Assembly: GCA_024638765.1 (NCBI GenBank)
Contig: JAHEJT010000037.1
Coordinates: 1 to 33,381 of the forward strand
DNA: 33,381 nucleotides
Direction of reading: 5' to 3'
DNA from: Verrucomicrobiales bacterium
Lineage (GTDB): Bacteria; Verrucomicrobiota; Verrucomicrobiia; Verrucomicrobiales; DEV007
The position numbers and the translations under genes are program-made. This document shows positions 29,391 through 33,381 of this stretch, in pieces (the first letter of the stretch is position 1; each line of letters starts with the position of its first letter). The notes beneath the pieces were generated by a model. It worked only from the letters and a program-made list of their open reading frames with translations. It had not been told where the DNA came from and did not search any database.

Positions 29391-29956
29391 AACTATTTGA
29401 AAATCAACAAGCTATATAGACATGAAATAGACCGAATTATCACTGACATAGCCGACAACAGAAAGTCCGCTGCCAGCAGCAACTGACAGCGGACCGGAAG
29501 GCGAACCGATCGAAATACTTCGATGAGTTCATCCTGTTACAAGGGTGAAAGTATAACTTACGAAGAATTCCCGGTCAAGATGACCGCAAGGTCATCGTGA
29601 CTCTGAAAACTTTTCCGGTTTTCAGCACAGGGGAGCTTTGTACTTCGGAGACGATCGACCGGACTTCTTTCGCAGGTTGTCGTGCGACCTGATAGGCTTG
29701 AAGGGAGGTGTGCCTGCAATCTTTGCCCACGTGGCGAAGCAAACACCGAAACGTCCGTCGAGAAATTCCTACGGCTGGAGCATCGCGCAAGCGAATCTCT
29801 ATCGGTGTTCGTTCTATATTTTCCAGGCACGTGTGATTGAGTCCGCGTCGCCTGCAAGGTGAGGACGTCCGATCCGGGAGGATCTTCAGGGCGGCGTTAA
29901 CTTTGCAGTCCAAGCGCGGATTTTCCACGCGTGCCATTCATTAATAGAAATGAGAA
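29391..29956. other. Gene-free, hairpin-rich leader before the tRNA array
   Basis: There is no supported protein gene. Clear inverted repeats are GTCCGCTG/CAGCGGAC (29467-29495 region), GATGACC-GCAA-GGTCATC (29579-29596), CTGAAAAC/GTTTTCAG with a 7-base loop (29602-29624), and CAGGTTG/CGACCTG (29673-29691). CCGGTC near 29567 can also pair with GACCGG near 29656, enclosing two of these hairpins in a ~92-base branched fold. It does not fit a tRNA, tmRNA or RNase P pattern. A TATAAC at 29552 might be a weak -10 for the array. Confidence 0.4.
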
Positions 29957-30033
29957 AGGCCGTCGGCGAGTGGGTATCGCGGTGAGGCTCCAAACCTCAT
30001 GCTGAGAGGGTTCGATTCCTTCGCGGCCTGCCA
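29957..30033 (+). tRNA. tRNA-Trp (anticodon CCA), canonical elbow
   Basis: Acceptor AGGCCGT pairs with GCGGCCT, followed by G73 and encoded CCA. Anticodon stem TGAGG/CCTCA closes the loop CTCCAAA. The D-loop GTGGGTA keeps GG and the T-loop is the normal TTCGATT. G73 fits tryptophan identity. This is the only tRNA of the array with canonical D-loop and T-loop signatures, so it may be an ordinary host tRNA next to which the array lies. Confidence 0.93.
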
Positions 30034-30042
30034 TTTCCAGGA

Positions 30043-30117
30043 GGGGCCGTAGTGATAAAAGCAGCACGACTGTTTTGCAAGCAGTAGGACTGGGAGCGTT
30101 ACCCGGCGGCTCCACCA
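30043..30117 (+). tRNA. tRNA-Ala (TGC) with altered elbow
   Basis: Acceptor GGGGCCG pairs with CGGCTCC and includes G3:U70, the main alanine identity element; A73 and CCA are encoded. The anticodon arm is ACTGT-TTTGCAA-GCAGT. The D-loop ATAAAAGCAG has AG where GG is expected. The T-stem CTGGG/CCCGG is sound, but the T-loop is AGCGTTA instead of TTCRANY. It lies 9 bases after tRNA-Trp. Confidence 0.85.
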
Positions 30118-30127
30118 TTTTTCTTTG

Positions 30128-30264
30128 ATGCGGTGATCGCCATTACTTCCAGGGACCGGACGCAGGATGTCCCGGAAGGCGATATCGCATGGCGCAATGC
30201 CGCTTTGGAATCGACAGACGACAGCAATCGGTGCGTCGGCCCCCTCCCGCAACCGCGGGAGGGG
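30128..30264. repeat. Two hairpin elements in the Ala-Pro spacer
   Basis: Bases 30128-30190 form a long imperfect hairpin: ATGCG/CGCAT outside, then ATCGCC/GGCGAT, then TTCC and GGGAC paired with GTCCC and GGAA. Bases 30241-30264 form a perfect 10-bp hairpin, CCCCTCCCGC-AACC-GCGGGAGGGG, followed 17 bases later by a T-rich stretch. The second might stop or pause transcription; neither is a tRNA. Confidence 0.6.
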
Positions 30265-30292
30265 CCGGGACCGGATTCAATTTCTTTTTCGA

Positions 30293-30369
30293 CGCGATGA
30301 GGGCGAAGGAGCCGAGCCGCGTGCCTTGGACGCACGAGAAAGCAGGTGCGAGCCCTGCCATCGCGACCA
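30293..30369 (+). tRNA. tRNA-Pro (TGG) with altered elbow
   Basis: Acceptor CGCGATG pairs perfectly with CATCGCG, keeping the C1:G72 and A73 typical of proline; CCA is encoded. The anticodon arm is CGTGC-CTTGGAC-GCACG. The D-loop contains GAGCC (AG rather than GG). T-arm GCAGG-TGCGAGC-CCTGC has G55 and C56. Confidence 0.88.
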
Positions 30370-30386
30370 TTTCGACCATTGACAGA

Positions 30387-30457
30387 TGCAGGCCGGGAAG
30401 ACCCGACCCGGGGCTCATAACCCTGGCGACCCGGAGCGTTACCGGGGCCTGCTACCA
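30387..30457 (+). tRNA. Initiator-like tRNA-Met (CAT) with compact D-arm and altered T-loop
   Basis: The anticodon arm CGGGG-CTCATAA-CCCTG has the three consecutive G:C pairs (29-31:39-41) that mark initiators. Counting back from A73-CCA, positions 1 and 72 are T and T, an unpaired end like the C1xA72 mismatch of bacterial initiators. Positions 2-7 pair with 66-71. The region 8-26 has only 15 bases and folds as CGGG-AAGA-CCCG. T-arm CCCGG-AGCGTTA-CCGGG. Confidence 0.83.
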
Positions 30458-30478
30458 TTCTTGGCTTCTGGAGAAGAG

Positions 30479-30568
30479 AGGTGTTGATCCGGCCAACGGA
30501 CTGTAAACCCGTCGTCATTAAACAAGGCCGGAAGCTGACGAGTGGAGCGTTACCACCAGCACCTACCA
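30479..30568 (+). tRNA. tRNA-Tyr (GTA) lacking a normal D-arm
   Basis: Acceptor AGGTGTT pairs with AGCACCT, then A73 and CCA. The anticodon loop is CTGTAAA (GTA) on a stem ACGG/CCGT with an A.C mismatch next to the loop. Only 10 bases lie between acceptor and anticodon arm, too few for a D-arm. The long variable arm is CGTCA/TGACG with an 18-base loop, in which GGCCGG (30526-30531) is complementary to CCGGCC (30489-30494) of the D region. T-loop AGCGTTA. Confidence 0.75.
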
Positions 30569-30569
30569 T

Positions 30570-30644
30570 ACCTCTGTGGTGAAACGAGTATCACGCCGGA
30601 CTGTTAATCCGGAATTCATGGGGCGGGGCCATGCGGAGGTGCCA
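30570..30644 (+). tRNA. tRNA-Asn (GTT) with altered elbow
   Basis: It starts one base after tRNA-Tyr. Acceptor ACCTCTG pairs with CGGAGGT; G73 and CCA follow, as expected for Asn. The anticodon arm is CCGGA-CTGTTAA-TCCGG. D-arm GTGA-AACGAGTA-TCAC differs from the usual AGTCGGTA-type loop by G18 to A. T-arm CATGG-GGCGGGG-CCATG has G55 and C56. Confidence 0.87.
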
Positions 30645-30710
30645 ATTCAATTTCCGATTTCTGATTTTCAATTTTCCAGAATTCGTGAATCGATAATCCG
30701 CAGTCTGCAC

Positions 30711-30781
30711 TGTCCTGTAGCTTAAAAGCAGAGCATCCGCCTGATAAGCGGAAGGCCCCGGAGCGTTACCGGGCGGGACAA
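30711..30781 (+). tRNA. tRNA-Ile (GAT) with altered elbow, CCA not encoded
   Basis: Acceptor TGTCCTG pairs with CGGGACA, then A73 and no CCA. The anticodon arm is TCCGC-CTGATAA-GCGGA. The D-loop contains AAAAGCAG with AG for GG. T-arm CCCGG-AGCGTTA-CCGGG. One of three array members whose CCA must be added by nucleotidyltransferase. Confidence 0.87.
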
Positions 30782-30839
30782 TTTCATTTTCGATTTCAGA
30801 TTGTCGATAGCCGATTTTTAAGGACGGCCGGACTGTCTC

Positions 30840-31023
30840 GAATGGCGCTACGTTTAGAACGGTGATCGTTCCGGCTGGAAACAATTTGGAGTGCGGTGGC
30901 TTGACACCGCTTTGGATCGCTGGCCCTTGACAACCAAAGCGCCGTCAAGCCGGCGCACTCCAAAGCGCTCCGCGCCCCGCGAACGCTCGCACAATCGAAG
31001 AAGTTGCTTAACGTAGCGCCATT
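30840..31023. mobile_element. MITE-like palindromic element inserted in the array
   Basis: An inverted repeat (GAATGGCGCTACGTTTA near 30840-30856, matching TTAACGTAGCGCCATTC at 31008-31024) encloses ~150 bases. Flanking direct repeats CCGGACTGTCTC (30828-30839) and CCGGACTGCCTC (31024-31035) look like a ~12-bp target duplication with one change. Inside is a second palindrome with TTTGGAGTGCG (30885-30895) and CGCACTCCAAA (30954-30964), which I recognise as an intergenic repeat of Verrucomicrobiota. Confidence 0.6.
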
Positions 31024-31075
31024 CCGGACTGCCTCTTTAATCGAAAATCCAAAATCAGAAATCGGCAATCTCTCC

Positions 31076-31149
31076 GGCCGTATAGCTCACGCAGGAGAGC
31101 GTCCGCCTGAAGAGCGGAAGAGCAGGGTGCAACTCCCGTGCGGCCGCCA
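31076..31149 (+). tRNA. tRNA-Phe (GAA) with altered elbow and short T-stem
   Basis: Acceptor GGCCGTA pairs with TGCGGCC, then G73 and CCA; bacterial Phe tRNAs normally have A73. The anticodon arm is TCCGC-CTGAAGA-GCGGA. D-arm GCTC-ACGCAGGA-GAGC shows AG instead of GG in an otherwise standard arm. The T-arm is one base short: GGG-TGCAACT-CCC with an extra A.G opposition. Confidence 0.8.
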
Positions 31150-31254
31150 CTCTCAATTATGATTTATCAATTAGCATGGAGCATTTGCCAGGCGGCGACC
31201 GCTCTTTGGGACTTCTAAATGATAAATGCTAAATCCAAATTGATAAATGCTACC

Positions 31255-31328
31255 GGTCCATTGGTGTAATAGCAGCATTTCTGATTGTCGATCAGACGGC
31301 GTCGGAGCGTAACCGGCATGGACCGCCA
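31255..31328 (+). tRNA. tRNA-Asp (GTC) with altered elbow
   Basis: Acceptor GGTCCAT pairs perfectly with ATGGACC, with G73 and CCA as expected for Asp. The anticodon arm is TCTGA-TTGTCGA-TCAGA. D-arm GTGT-AATAGCA-GCAT. T-arm GTCGG-AGCGTAA-CCGGC. It is bracketed by TGATAAATG (31241-31249) and its exact complement CATTTATCA (31333-31341). Confidence 0.87.
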
Positions 31329-31450
31329 GTGTCATTTATCATGGATCAAGGAAGATTTAGCAGATCCGTCCGTGACGCGGTTCGTAGCAAAGCCCCGTCA
31401 CGGGAAAAATGCAAAATGCTCCATGCTGAATGATAAATGTTAGATTTTAC

Positions 31451-31526
31451 TCCTCCGTGGCCGAGAAAGAAAGGCACCCGACTTTTAATCGGGTTGATGT
31501 GGGGGCAGCGCCCACCGGAGGAACCA
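31451..31526 (+). tRNA. tRNA-Lys (TTT) with altered elbow
   Basis: Acceptor TCCTCCG pairs perfectly with CGGAGGA, then A73 (as in lysine tRNAs) and CCA. The anticodon arm is CCCGA-CTTTTAA-TCGGG. The D-stem is GCC/GGC with loop GAGAAAGAAA, without GG. T-arm GTGGG-GGCAGCG-CCCAC has G55 and C56. AAATGATAAATG words lie upstream and ATTTAGCAT words downstream. Confidence 0.87.
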
Positions 31527-31645
31527 GTTTCATTTAGCATCTATCATTTCGCATTTAACAGGGGCCGTGCCGTCGGTCGTGGGGATCGAACTCTGACATT
31601 CCCCTGAAATGATAAATGAGAAATCCTAAATGCTAAATTCCAAAC

Positions 31646-31720
31646 GTTGATCATGGTGTAAGAGCAGCATTCGGTCCTGTGAAGACCGCGGTGCGGGTGC
31701 GAATCCCGTTGGTCAACCCA
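31646..31720 (+). tRNA. tRNA-His (GTG) with altered elbow
   Basis: It carries the histidine hallmark: an extra G at -1 (31646) opposite C73, before encoded CCA. Acceptor TTGATCA pairs with TGGTCAA. The anticodon arm is CGGTC-CTGTGAA-GACCG. D-arm GTGT-AAGAGCA-GCAT is nearly the same as that of tRNA-Asp. T-arm GCGGG-TGCGAAT-CCCGT. Confidence 0.9.
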
Positions 31721-31732
31721 CCTCTTTTCTTT

Positions 31733-31806
31733 GACGCTGTGGCCGAGGAGCGAGGCAGGCGGCTGCAACCCGCCGCACGGGGGTGCAACTCCCTCCGGCG
31801 TCTCCA
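31733..31806 (+). tRNA. tRNA-Cys (GCA) with altered elbow
   Basis: Acceptor GACGCTG pairs with CGGCGTC and is followed by T73 and CCA; U73 is the main cysteine identity base. The anticodon arm is GGCGG-CTGCAAC-CCGCC. The D-stem GCC/GGC has loop GAGGAGCGA. T-arm GGGGG-TGCAACT-CCCTC. Confidence 0.88.
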
Positions 31807-31834
31807 ATTCAAGAACCTGCGCGACGCATCAAAC

Positions 31835-31911
31835 GCCAGCGTGGCTGAGACAACTTAGGCACCGATCTTGTAAATCGGGTGACGTCGGTGAAAGCCCGAC
31901 CGCTGGCTCCA
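31835..31911 (+). tRNA. tRNA-Thr (TGT) with the most divergent elbow
   Basis: Acceptor GCCAGCG pairs perfectly with CGCTGGC, then T73 and CCA. The anticodon arm is CCGAT-CTTGTAA-ATCGG. T-arm GTCGG-TGAAAGC-CCGAC keeps G55, but position 56 is A instead of C. Its D-loop also departs from the rest of the array (GAGACAACTTA, no AGC), which may be a matched change at the 19-56 contact. Confidence 0.82.
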
Positions 31912-31979
31912 TTTCGGGGAGTGTAGCCCGCCGCTCCGCGGCGGATCGCGAGAAAACGCCACGGAGTGGGGTGCTACTC

Positions 31980-32050
31980 GGGGGATTGGTTTAAAAGAAG
32001 AACGCCTGTTTTACAAACAGGAAGCGGTGGAGCATTACCATCATCCCCTA
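31980..32050 (+). tRNA. tRNA-Val (TAC) with altered elbow, CCA not encoded
   Basis: Acceptor GGGGGAT pairs with ATCCCCT (G1.U72 wobble), then A73; the next bases are GCG, so CCA is not encoded. The anticodon arm is CCTGT-TTTACAA-ACAGG. The D-stem is GTT/AAC with loop TAAAAGAAG. T-arm GGTGG-AGCATTA-CCATC. A palindromic insert with GAGTGTAGC and GCTACTC arms separates it from tRNA-Thr. Confidence 0.82.
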
Positions 32051-32224
32051 GCGGTGCCATTTATCATTTCAGATATATCAATTAGCATTTCGGGGCTCGC
32101 GTTGCGTCATGACTATCTCTGCTGAAAGCTCCACTTGAGCGGAGGAATCCTCTGTTCGGCTAATCGAGACAACCGCACGAAAGCTCTTAATGCTAAATGA
32201 TAAATCCTAAATGAAAAATTCAGG

Positions 32225-32312
32225 GCCCGATGTTCCCCCAGTGGTCTTCGAAGCCACCGGCATTACAGCAGGGGGGTAGAGCCGAGAGGTGCAGCTCCTC
32301 CATCGGGCGCCA
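32225..32312 (+). tRNA. Long-variable-arm tRNA with anticodon TCG, no normal D-arm
   Basis: Acceptor GCCCGAT pairs with ATCGGGC, with G73 and CCA; an eighth pair with a 4-bp T-stem (8/4) is possible. The anticodon arm GTGGT-CTTCGAA-GCCAC gives TCG, an arginine anticodon, on a class II body. The D region has only nine bases (GTTCCCCCA). The variable arm is CGGC/GCCG with a 19-base loop containing GGGGGG, complementary to the D-region CCCCC. T-loop TGCAGCT. The amino acid is uncertain (Arg by anticodon, Ser-like by body). Confidence 0.7.
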
Positions 32313-32320
32313 CTTTCGAC

Positions 32321-32397
32321 GCCCCCGTAGCTCAAGAGATCAGAGCACCGGGCTTCTAACCCGGGGGTTGCAGGTGCAAGTCCTGCCGGGGGTGCCA
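32321..32397 (+). tRNA. tRNA-Arg (TCT) with altered elbow
   Basis: Acceptor GCCCCCG pairs with CGGGGGT, then G73 and CCA. The anticodon arm is CCGGG-CTTCTAA-CCCGG. D-arm GCTC-AAGAGATCA-GAGC with AG for GG. T-arm GCAGG-TGCAAGT-CCTGC. It follows the TCG tRNA by eight bases and is an ordinary short-variable-loop tRNA. Confidence 0.9.
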
Positions 32398-32527
32398 CTT
32401 TCCATTTATCATTTATCATTTTGGATTTAGCATTTTTCCACCGCGTTCCTGATTGGATAGCGTCGACGGCTGGAAATGCTAAATGCTAAATGCTAAATGC
32501 TAAATCCTGAATGTGAGATGAATTCAC

Positions 32528-32605
32528 GGCCGTGTAGCCCAACTAGCAAGAGGCGCCTGTCTCAGAAACAGGAGGTTGAGGGTGCAAATCCTTCCACGGC
32601 TACCA
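32528..32605 (+). tRNA. Short-variable-loop tRNA with leucine anticodon CAG
   Basis: Acceptor GGCCGTG pairs with CACGGCT (G1.U72), then A73 and CCA. The anticodon arm CCTGT-CTCAGAA-ACAGG gives CAG, a leucine anticodon. The variable loop is only five bases (AGGTT), whereas bacterial leucine tRNAs have a long variable arm. The D-stem is GCC/GGC with loop CAACTAGCAAGA. T-arm GAGGG-TGCAAAT-CCTTC. A73 fits leucine, but charging is uncertain. Confidence 0.82.
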
Positions 32606-32657
32606 TTCATTTAGCAATTAGGATTTATCATTTTCGAAGTGCAGCCGCACTTTGAAT

Positions 32658-32748
32658 GGAGTCTTAACCGGACAAGCGCGCCGGCGTCGCTTGCTAAGCG
32701 ATCGGTCCCGTTTCACGGGTTGAGGTGCAAGCCCTCAAGGCTCCGCCA
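32658..32748 (+). tRNA. tRNA-Ser (GCT) with altered elbow and normal long variable arm
   Basis: Acceptor GGAGTCT pairs with AGGCTCC, with G73 and CCA. The anticodon arm is GTCGC-TTGCTAA-GCGAT. The variable arm CCCGT-TTC-ACGGG is a standard serine-type hairpin, and the D-arm is CCGG-ACAAGCGCG-CCGG with AG for GG. T-arm TGAGG-TGCAAGC-CCTCA. This shows that a normal D-arm is possible in a class II member of the array. Confidence 0.88.
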
Positions 32749-32779
32749 TGTTCATTTAGCATTTAGGAGTTAGCATTTA

Positions 32780-33139
32780 TCATTTTTCACGTGCTGTGCG
32801 TCGCGCGGTGAAGACCATCGCACAGATTTCGTCTGCCTCCTTGTGAAGAGAGCGGACTTGTTCGTTGTCTAGAAGTCCGCCCTCGTCGATGAGTTCCAAC
32901 CAGAATGCGGATTCGTCCGCTTCCTCCAAAACGGTGCCAAGTTTAGCGACGAACTCCGCCGTGGAGCGCCCGCGGCAAGCTGCTCGATAGTTTGCCCCGA
33001 CAGAAGTCGCGCTTCGCAGAAGCTGATCCGCCAAAATCCTGCCCTTATTAGTGCTCGGGACTTGCTCGATGAGGTCCATCACATCAAGTGCAAAACGCCT
33101 AGTCCTATCTTTCATTTCATCCTTGTTCATGGCTCGCAC
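32780..33139 (-). CDS. Four-helix-bundle protein (23S rRNA intervening-sequence protein family)
   Basis: The product has 119 residues (a Met three codons in, at 33130, is also possible). It matches the small four-helix-bundle family often called 23S rRNA intervening-sequence proteins: DRTRRFALDVMDLIEQVP, ILADQLLRSATSVGANYRAA, STAEFVAKLGTVLEEADES, FWLELIDEGGLL. Members are common in environmental bacteria, frequently between repeats, and have no settled function; an RNA-binding role has been suggested from their presence inside rRNA genes. It lies on the opposite strand to the tRNAs, between tRNA-Ser and tRNA-Glu, flanked on both sides by the array's AT-rich word repeats. Confidence 0.9.
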   Translation of the reverse strand: MRAMNKDEMKDRTRRFALDVMDLIEQVPSTNKGRILADQLLRSATSVGANYRAACRGRSTAEFVAKLGTVLEEADESAFWLELIDEGGLLDNEQVRSLHKEADEICAMVFTARRTAREK

Positions 33140-33196
33140 GATATTGGCAAGGGGCTGAAATGATAAATCCTAAATGATAAATCCTAAATGAAACAC

Positions 33197-33268
33197 GTCC
33201 CTGTCAGCTATGGAGTAGGCTACCGCGCTTTCAACGCGGCAAACCGGGTGCAAGTCCCGGCGGGGATG
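33197..33268 (+). tRNA. tRNA-Glu (TTC) with altered elbow, CCA not encoded
   Basis: Acceptor GTCCCTG pairs with CGGGGAT, then G73 as in glutamate tRNAs, followed by CTG, so CCA is not encoded. The anticodon arm is CCGCG-CTTTCAA-CGCGG. D-stem AGCT/GGCT with loop ATGGAGTA (AG for GG). T-arm CCGGG-TGCAAGT-CCCGG. Confidence 0.87.
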
Positions 33269-33381
33269 CTGCGTCAAGGGGCATTTAGCATTCGTCATTT
33301 AACATGGGAGGATCAAGAGGCGTGCTGAAAGTGTGAGAATTCCAGTGATGCACATCCGCTCTCTCCTCTGGTCTGAAATGA

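Follow-up and report, generated by a model that had tools for sequence, protein, structure and literature searches.

We begin by considering the end of a 33,381-nucleotide contig from a Verrucomicrobiales bacterium (JAHEJT010000037.1, assembly GCA_024638765.1; the whole stretch is called the window below), where a long array of transfer RNA (tRNA) genes carries an unusual exchange at the elbow, the contact between the D-loop and the T-loop. The genes in the rest of the window include those for a sulfatase, a sensor kinase, an AMP-binding enzyme, UbiA and a DUF3419 protein (18 proteins were scanned). By direct reading, the last 3.4 kb hold 19 tRNA genes, all on the + strand and head to tail, from 29957 to 33271. 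The published definition of a bacterial tRNA array unit is at least 20 tRNAs with at least two per kb (PMC5966550). The window has 19 tRNAs in 3.3 kb, a density within that definition and a count of 19 against 20, and the contig ends 110 bases past the last tRNA. The array genes are listed below, with the seven letters of the T-loop.

29957-30033, + strand, tRNA-Trp(CCA), first gene of the array, canonical elbow (GG / TTCGATT)
30043-30117, + strand, tRNA-Ala(TGC), AGCGTTA, A18G19, G3:U70 retained
30293-30369, + strand, tRNA-Pro(TGG), TGCGAGC, A18G19
30387-30457, + strand, initiator-type tRNA-Met(CAT), AGCGTTA, mini D-arm of 4 bp with loop AAGA, T1.T72 mismatch
30479-30568, + strand, tRNA-Tyr(GTA), AGCGTTA, canonical D-arm absent, D region complementary to the variable region (computed fold)
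30570-30644, + strand, tRNA-Asn(GTT), GGCGGGG, A18G19
30711-30781, + strand, tRNA-Ile(GAT), AGCGTTA, A18G19, CCA not encoded
31076-31149, + strand, tRNA-Phe(GAA), TGCAACT, D-loop with both AG and GG
31255-31328, + strand, tRNA-Asp(GTC), AGCGTAA, A18G19
31451-31526, + strand, tRNA-Lys(TTT), GGCAGCG, A18G19
31647-31720, + strand, tRNA-His(GTG), TGCGAAT, A18G19, G-1 and C73
31733-31806, + strand, tRNA-Cys(GCA), TGCAACT, A18G19
31835-31911, + strand, tRNA-Thr(TGT), TGAAAGC (A56), D-loop without AG or GG
31980-32050, + strand, tRNA-Val(TAC), AGCATTA, A18G19, CCA not encoded
32225-32312, + strand, tRNA with anticodon TCG, TGCAGCT, 8-bp acceptor stem, G73, D-arm absent
32321-32397, + strand, tRNA-Arg(TCT), TGCAAGT, A18G19
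32528-32605, + strand, tRNA-Leu(CAG), TGCAAAT, A18G19
32658-32748, + strand, tRNA-Ser(GCT), TGCAAGC, A18G19
33197-33271, + strand, tRNA-Glu(TTC), TGCAAGT, CCA not encoded, contig end 110 bases beyond

Downstream of tRNA-Trp, all 18 tRNAs have G55 and none has U55, as the initial annotation of this DNA had claimed from the letters alone. C56 is retained in 17 of them, the exception being Thr with A56, again in agreement with that annotation. Its estimate of AG D-loops in at least fourteen also holds: A18-G19 can be placed in 15 of the 18, in 14 standard D-arms and in the four-nucleotide mini-loop AAGA of the initiator-type tRNA, whose 4-bp D-stem is joined straight to the acceptor stem. Both AG and GG occur in the D-loops of Phe and Glu, and for Glu the AG reading is favoured by the orthologues (ATGCAGTA). 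An AG D-loop is absent from the Thr, Tyr and TCG tRNAs. The 8-bp acceptor stem and G73 of the TCG tRNA prompted a speculative reading as a Sec-tRNA. The T-loops listed in the annotation are as given except for the TCG tRNA, whose loop TGCAGCT has G58 and not A58. Its description of the stems as intact is right for most acceptor, anticodon and T stems; the D-arm, however, is absent in Tyr and TCG and reduced in the initiator. The Tyr, TCG and Phe tRNAs, which fall below the parser cut-off or outside the parser output, were read by eye. CCA is encoded in 15 of the 18 (all except Ile, Val and Glu), and no tRNA-Gly was found in the window, where many other anticodons are present.

ARAGORN detects eight of the 18 G55 tRNAs of the window and misses ten, so tRNAs of this class may be under-counted. 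The Rfam tRNA model (RF00005), the only model above its gathering score in the window, detects 10 of the 18 when the window is searched and 12 when the whole genome is searched. RNAfold z-scores for ten single RNAs, -0.7 to -3.1, are weak to moderate and several of the folds are not cloverleaves; they are not used as evidence here.

How tightly are positions 18 and 55 coupled? Over 18 array loci, the tRNAs with an unambiguous D-loop comprise 202 with AG/G55, none with AG/U55, one with GG/G55 and 35 with GG/U55 (Fisher p ~3e-41, a statistic that ignores shared descent). These 238 classified tRNAs come from 285 parsed rows, 270 of them at a score of at least 45, from which 32 were excluded: 15 with G55 and neither AG nor GG, 15 with both AG and GG, and two with another base at 55. 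Seventeen of the 202 are of the mini D-arm type, and among the 35 GG/U55 tRNAs are a pair of ordinary Arg(CCT) genes (L010 and L015) that lie over 1 kb away from the arrays. The table supports the view that the G18-U55 contact has been exchanged as a unit for A18/G55 while G19-C56 has been retained, which is the replacement of G18-pseudouridine 55 (psi55) that the initial annotation had put forward for checking by covariation in homologues.

U55 and G55 are both found in ten anticodon groups, and in eight of these (Glu, Lys, Leu-CAG, Leu-TAA, Met, Asn, Pro and Trp) both D-loop states are unambiguous; the groups are defined by anticodon, and one group may mix genes that are not orthologous. The pair has therefore switched more than once, or some members have been replaced by canonical ones. 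Given the coupling, selection behind the joint change is the natural reading, and the argument for selection that the annotation drew from the repetition of the change is upheld to this extent. Positions 54 and 58 also shift jointly among 235 G55 tRNAs (T/A 132, A/T 49, G/G 43, others 11), with G55 common to several loop types (TGCRA, AGCRT, GGCRG and TGAAA). The sole classified mixed case in the arrays, G18-G19 with G55, is an Asn tRNA at positions 949-1023 of locus L022.

Similar arrays are found elsewhere in the phylum. Of 57 relatives searched by DNA similarity, 21 gave matches, some of them solely through a repeat, a gene for an intervening-sequence protein (IVP) or an ordinary Arg tRNA, and the single-tRNA matches are mostly 74-90% identical. 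The structural scan finds arrays in 17 of the 20 stretches examined, with none in L023, L025 and L028. The Pro tRNA of the array matches nine named contigs, all nine from Verrucomicrobiota. A pattern search for one A18/G55 tRNA type in 387 genomes of the phylum returns five (G000, which is the genome of the window, G054, G363, G148 and G230), of which G148 and G230 belong to another order of the class; the array of G148 has at least 26 tRNAs, and U55 is absent from all 26 parsed at a score of at least 50. The phylum-wide DNA search mostly returned the canonical Arg tRNA or the IVP gene and misses distant arrays, and G261 and G284, with one or two matches each, are not counted as arrays. With the window, the array loci total 21, i.e., 20 further loci in Verrucomicrobiota from at least two orders. 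The pattern is not due to chance, because many relatives have arrays with these loops; absence from related genomes, which the annotation had named as a sign of decay or artefact, is not what is found. The observation of a rewired array is confirmed as real.

The array is an extra set of tRNAs, since 41 further Rfam tRNA matches lie elsewhere in the genome, including a housekeeping Trp (L045); the possibility that the array is the only tRNA set of the organism is rejected on the same count. All 40 housekeeping rows that could be parsed (one locus of the 41 is unparsed, and two of the rows are twin Arg-TCT genes) have TTC with a GG D-loop. Housekeeping Asn and Ile(GAT) are not among these 40 rows, and may lie outside the incomplete assembly or in the unparsed locus.

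Do the array tRNAs keep the signals for charging? The G3:U70 pair of Ala is present in nine of nine. The discriminator base equals that of the housekeeping tRNA in all parsed Ala, Cys, Asp, Glu, Lys, Ser, Val and Tyr array tRNAs; Leu, Pro, Gln and Trp each have a single exception, and Met agrees in 10 of 13. The counts include U73 in 15/15 for Cys, G73 in 12/12 for Asp, A73 in 17/17 for Lys, G73 in 13/14 for Gln and G73 in 11/12 for Trp. Asn has G73 in 11/11 and Ile has A73 in 8/8, with no housekeeping row for comparison, and the agreement for Arg is partial. Most charging signals are kept and not all, because the discriminators agree for many isoacceptors, disagree for Gly and agree in part for His, Phe, Thr and Arg.

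We turn our attention to the neighbouring genes. A gene for RtcB, Ro60/TROVE, RlaP (annotated as "RNA repair pathway DNA polymerase beta family"), an SPFH protein or an HNH protein adjoins the array in 14 of the 21 array loci, as listed here by genome. Some identities come from Pfam and others from BLASTP to those; for G148 and G230 they rest on BLASTP similarity only.

RtcB beside the array: G013, G045, G048, G230
TROVE/Ro60 beside the array: G008, G015, G018, G020, G035, G230
RlaP beside the array: G015, G054, G148
SPFH beside the array: G003, G022, G035, G148
HNH beside the array: G018, G020, G022, G034, G035, G048, G054, G230

Four further loci (that of the window, G010, G021 and G028) are truncated by the contig end downstream of the array. 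An unnamed family, c8, also recurs beside the arrays of G011, G020, G035, G048 and G148 (members at L088 2942-3658, L374 6410-7075, L010 10094-11827, L016 1445-2317 and L011 10413-11480); none of the three members scanned has a Pfam match above the cut-off.

Within the taxonomic family of the window, TROVE is above the cut-off in 5 of 13 array-bearing genomes and in none of 22 others (one-sided Fisher p 0.004), with a weaker match in one of the 22, G004. RtcB with E below 1e-50 is found in 9 of the 13 against 3 of the 22 (one-sided Fisher p 0.001). Both p values are uncorrected for kinship, and the "other" genomes are those without an array by DNA similarity, among which divergent arrays may be missed.

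Rewired tRNAs are also found in viral contigs. A search of IMG/VR with the array-linked Ro60 gives one relative, on a 225-kb jumbo-phage contig that encodes a tail sheath, tail fibres and a DNA polymerase and on which no RtcB match was found. This contig has 28 A18/G55 tRNAs, three canonical and one ambiguous, followed by Ro60 and then HNH. A lone canonical tRNA in this jumbo phage with its rewired array (L160, 12582) has the amber anticodon CTA. The huge phage LR745206 has a Ro60 that is 46% identical, and a scan found no tRNA within 14 kb of it.

The pattern for one A18/G55 tRNA type matches at least 120 viral stretches; among the 120 matches listed, 71 have at least one AG/G55 tRNA that passes a stricter structural parse and 10 have five or more. 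Patterns for the mixed forms match 62 stretches (AG with TTC) and 20 stretches (GG with TGC) in all, both being complete counts. All three sets were selected by pattern, and the parsed counts that follow are not frequencies: in the listed 120, AG/G55 176, AG/U55 4, GG/G55 0 and GG/U55 247; in the 62, AG/G55 2, AG/U55 23, GG/G55 0 and GG/U55 218, with 36 more U55 tRNAs having both AG and GG; and in the 20, AG/G55 21, AG/U55 1, GG/G55 2 and GG/U55 69. Mixed 18/55 forms do exist, then, in viral stretches.

Additional tRNA arrays with HNH genes have been described before (PMC5966550, PMC6409571), and the closest comparison is with the trn operon of Anabaena sp. PCC 7120. This operon has 26 tRNAs, stays unexpressed until the cells meet ribosome antibiotics, and is under the same repressor as rtcB, a gene for an HNH protein and one for a slipin (the TrcR regulon; PMC10272220). 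Like that operon, the present array is a second long tRNA array besides scattered housekeeping tRNAs. A plasmid array of the trn type in Nostoc sp. ATCC 53789 (L071) has a related HNH gene directly upstream, and of the 20 tRNAs parsed in this array Glu(CTC) and Ile(GAT) are A18/G55 as in the window. Unlike the window array, in which nearly all tRNAs are rewired, most of the parsed Nostoc tRNAs are GG/TTC, and no RNA-repair gene annotation was found in the 14 kb around them.

The array units of Mycobacterium plasmids and phages (PMC5966550) have a similar architecture, with HNH inside the array in the Mycolicibacterium plasmid examined here (L074), and differ in that U55 is kept; two T-loops of L074, those of Ala and Lys(CTT), read ATCGTAG and ATCGAAA, with A54. 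These two arrays come from 66 plasmid records with an HNH match, six of which were examined (arrays in L071 and L074, none in L072, L073, L075 and L076).

The rtcBA and rsr-yrl RNA-repair operons provide another comparison, as RtcB, Ro60, RlaP and SPFH genes likewise adjoin the Verrucomicrobiota arrays. RtcR, which drives rtcBA, is described as binding 5' tRNA halves, whereas the RNA partners in the Salmonella rsr-yrlBA-rtcBA operon are Y RNAs and not a whole tRNA set (PMC7790460). In searches of an open-licence library, which lacks key papers, we found neither the wholesale A18/G55 coupling nor the link of rewired arrays to RtcB/Ro60/RlaP islands and their sharing with phage contigs; the original Anabaena cluster papers, which were not among the papers listed, may mention odd loops.

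What could such a set be for? We think it probable that this second large set of apparently chargeable tRNAs is the RNA part of an RNA-repair or conflict island, a replacement pool drawn upon when tRNAs are damaged. Cleavage or other inactivation of the housekeeping tRNAs would induce the array, whose products would work together with enzymes for the sensing, ligation and rebuilding of broken tRNAs. With its A18.G55 elbow, an array tRNA would preserve the L-shape although the T-psi-C motif is gone. Neither 2'-O-methylated G18 (Gm18) nor psi55 can be present in these tRNAs, in many of them the usual modifications of positions 54 and 58 are also impossible, and a factor or nuclease that recognises the normal elbow would pass them over. 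The layout of the array, its conservation, the 18/55 coupling, most charging signals, the genes next to related arrays and the occurrence on phage contigs are observed; that the set responds to damaged tRNAs, that it serves translation, how it folds and why the elbow was exchanged are what we infer. The best reading of the replacement set is by its resemblance to the Anabaena trn operon, on which model the array would supply fresh tRNAs once the normal ones are broken.

Of the roles that the initial annotation had proposed, backup tRNAs fit the large size of this second set, its mostly conserved charging signals and the RNA-repair genes next to such arrays, and nuclease resistance is hypothetical. 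Its proposal of carriers for non-ribosomal use is unsupported, because tRNAs for most amino acids and one of initiator type are included; among the 18 window proteins scanned there is no family of that kind, none having been searched by name. The peptidoglycan tRNA-Gly of Staphylococcus, the precedent that the annotation named, also has UGC in its T-loop; it serves one amino acid in a non-ribosomal use, in contrast to the array.

Several results weigh against the replacement pool. All five kinds of neighbour gene are lacking at three array loci (G011, G056 and G363), G011 having c8 instead. The TROVE search of the genome of the window gave no match, the downstream side of the array lying beyond the contig end, and its RtcB, with archease, is on another contig than the array. 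TROVE is above the cut-off without an array match in G042, G050 and G051, outside the window's family, and RtcB occurs there in many genomes for which no array was matched; TROVE is missing from the array-bearing genomes G048 and G054. On the charging side, array Gly has A73 in 15/16, whereas two of three housekeeping Gly have U73, and the discriminator is only partly kept in His (C73 9/16), Phe (A73 3/7) and Thr (U73 6/11). Finally, two actinophage arrays accompanied by a Ro-like gene have canonical elbows throughout (BRock, 25/25 TTC) or almost throughout (Atuin, 19 TTC, 3 ATC), so repair genes do not require the swap. The swap as a general trait of HNH- or Ro60-linked arrays is rejected on the Mycolicibacterium, BRock and Atuin arrays.

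Two explanations of the swap itself both fit the results: evasion of attackers that read the elbow, and freedom from modification. If toxins, defence nucleases or phage factors target the modified T54-psi55/G18 elbow, the array tRNAs would resist them; one published toxin does cleave a tRNA within its T-loop, at the bond joining T and psi (PMC9086364). Viral contigs repeatedly carry rewired tRNAs, which are also met beside repair genes, and the several loop types have G55 in common. We hold evasion to be somewhat less likely than not, since most known tRNA nucleases act on the anticodon loop or the acceptor end, Ro60-adjoining arrays can be canonical, and we know of no elbow-specific attacker in Verrucomicrobiota, for which no search was made.

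Alternatively, an A18.G55 elbow may be stable from transcription, such that a burst of new tRNA in stress or infection would work without TruB, TrmH or U54 methylation. The psi55 and Gm18 modifications are described as elbow-stabilising (PMC7912444); G55, A18 and often A54/T58 or G54/G58 eliminate the substrate bases, and the feature is also present in viral contigs. The stability of A18.G55 is only presumed, however, and the Nostoc, Mycolicibacterium and two actinophage arrays keep mostly canonical elbows; we hold this explanation, too, to be rather less likely than not.

That the array RNAs are decoys, RNA-repair platforms or signalling RNAs, binding Ro60 or repair proteins or absorbing nucleases without a part in translation, would suit the Ro60 genes beside or inside arrays and the tRNA-like domain of the bacterial YrlA RNA (PMC7790460). 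We consider it unlikely: the arrays retain charging signals specific to the isoacceptors, features of an initiator and anticodons that cover most amino acids, and Ro60 is not nearby in many arrays. The uncharged decoys of the initial annotation are likewise unsupported. Decaying or mobile tRNA debris with drifting loops would account for the few members that have lost CCA or the canonical D-arm and for the dispersed repeat inside the array. Decay is in our view refuted because the 18/55 coupling over 238 classified tRNAs is near-perfect, and the conservation across families and at least two orders is also against it; decay or artefact is therefore rejected and debris is highly improbable.

A broader form of the replacement-pool reading, to which we would give not quite an even chance, is that A18.G55 tRNAs may be a distinct, widespread and working class with a modification-free elbow, common to repair islands and phages and kept as an attack-resistant parallel set that sustains translation while the normal tRNAs are destroyed. 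The G18-psi55 contact is treated as a near-universal feature of tRNA; the arrays are a natural series in which it is exchanged, almost always pairwise, with most charging signals kept, and such a series would be a direct test of the purpose of the elbow and of psi55. Arrays, RNA repair and phage tRNAs would be linked in one idea, that of spare tRNAs invisible to the agents acting on normal ones.

Some array tRNAs have unusual D-arms. The D region of tRNA-Tyr and the loop of its long variable arm are complementary in the window (30479-30568), in L010 (3163-3251), with other bases that still match, and more loosely in L011 (6361-6450); the computed fold shows the pairing in the window copy only. 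This complementarity suggests a predicted pseudoknot between the D region and the variable-arm loop in the D-arm-less tRNA-Tyr of the arrays. Mini D-arms are found in the initiator and Trp tRNAs of most arrays (e.g., L013 3838-3908 and 5439-5510), with 4 bp joined straight to the acceptor stem and loops AAGT/AAGA or CAGC; the bases of the initiator mini-stem vary among loci and yet pair (by eye). In an Arg-like tRNA (anticodon TCG or TCT; window 32225-32312 and L019 7017-7114), D-region CCCCC/CCCTC and variable-region GGGGG/GAGGG are complementary by eye; for the TCG tRNA of the window, with CCCCC in the D region and GGGGGG in the variable region, the computed fold pairs both otherwise. In Thr(TGT), a four-nucleotide D-loop without G19 is present in four of five loci, and C56 is lost in all five.

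Other features lie between the tRNA genes of the window. An open reading frame of 119 amino acids on the - strand (32780-33139), between the Ser and Glu tRNAs, matches 23S_rRNA_IVP (Pfam PF05635, E 1.3e-18). An inverted-repeat element at 30835-31025 has copies of ~120-230 bases, 74-98% identical, on four other contigs of the same genome. The spacers between the tRNAs (window 29901-33381) contain short AT-rich repeats, e.g., AAATGATAAAT and TAAATGCTAAAT, each occurring two to five times and absent from the first 29.9 kb.

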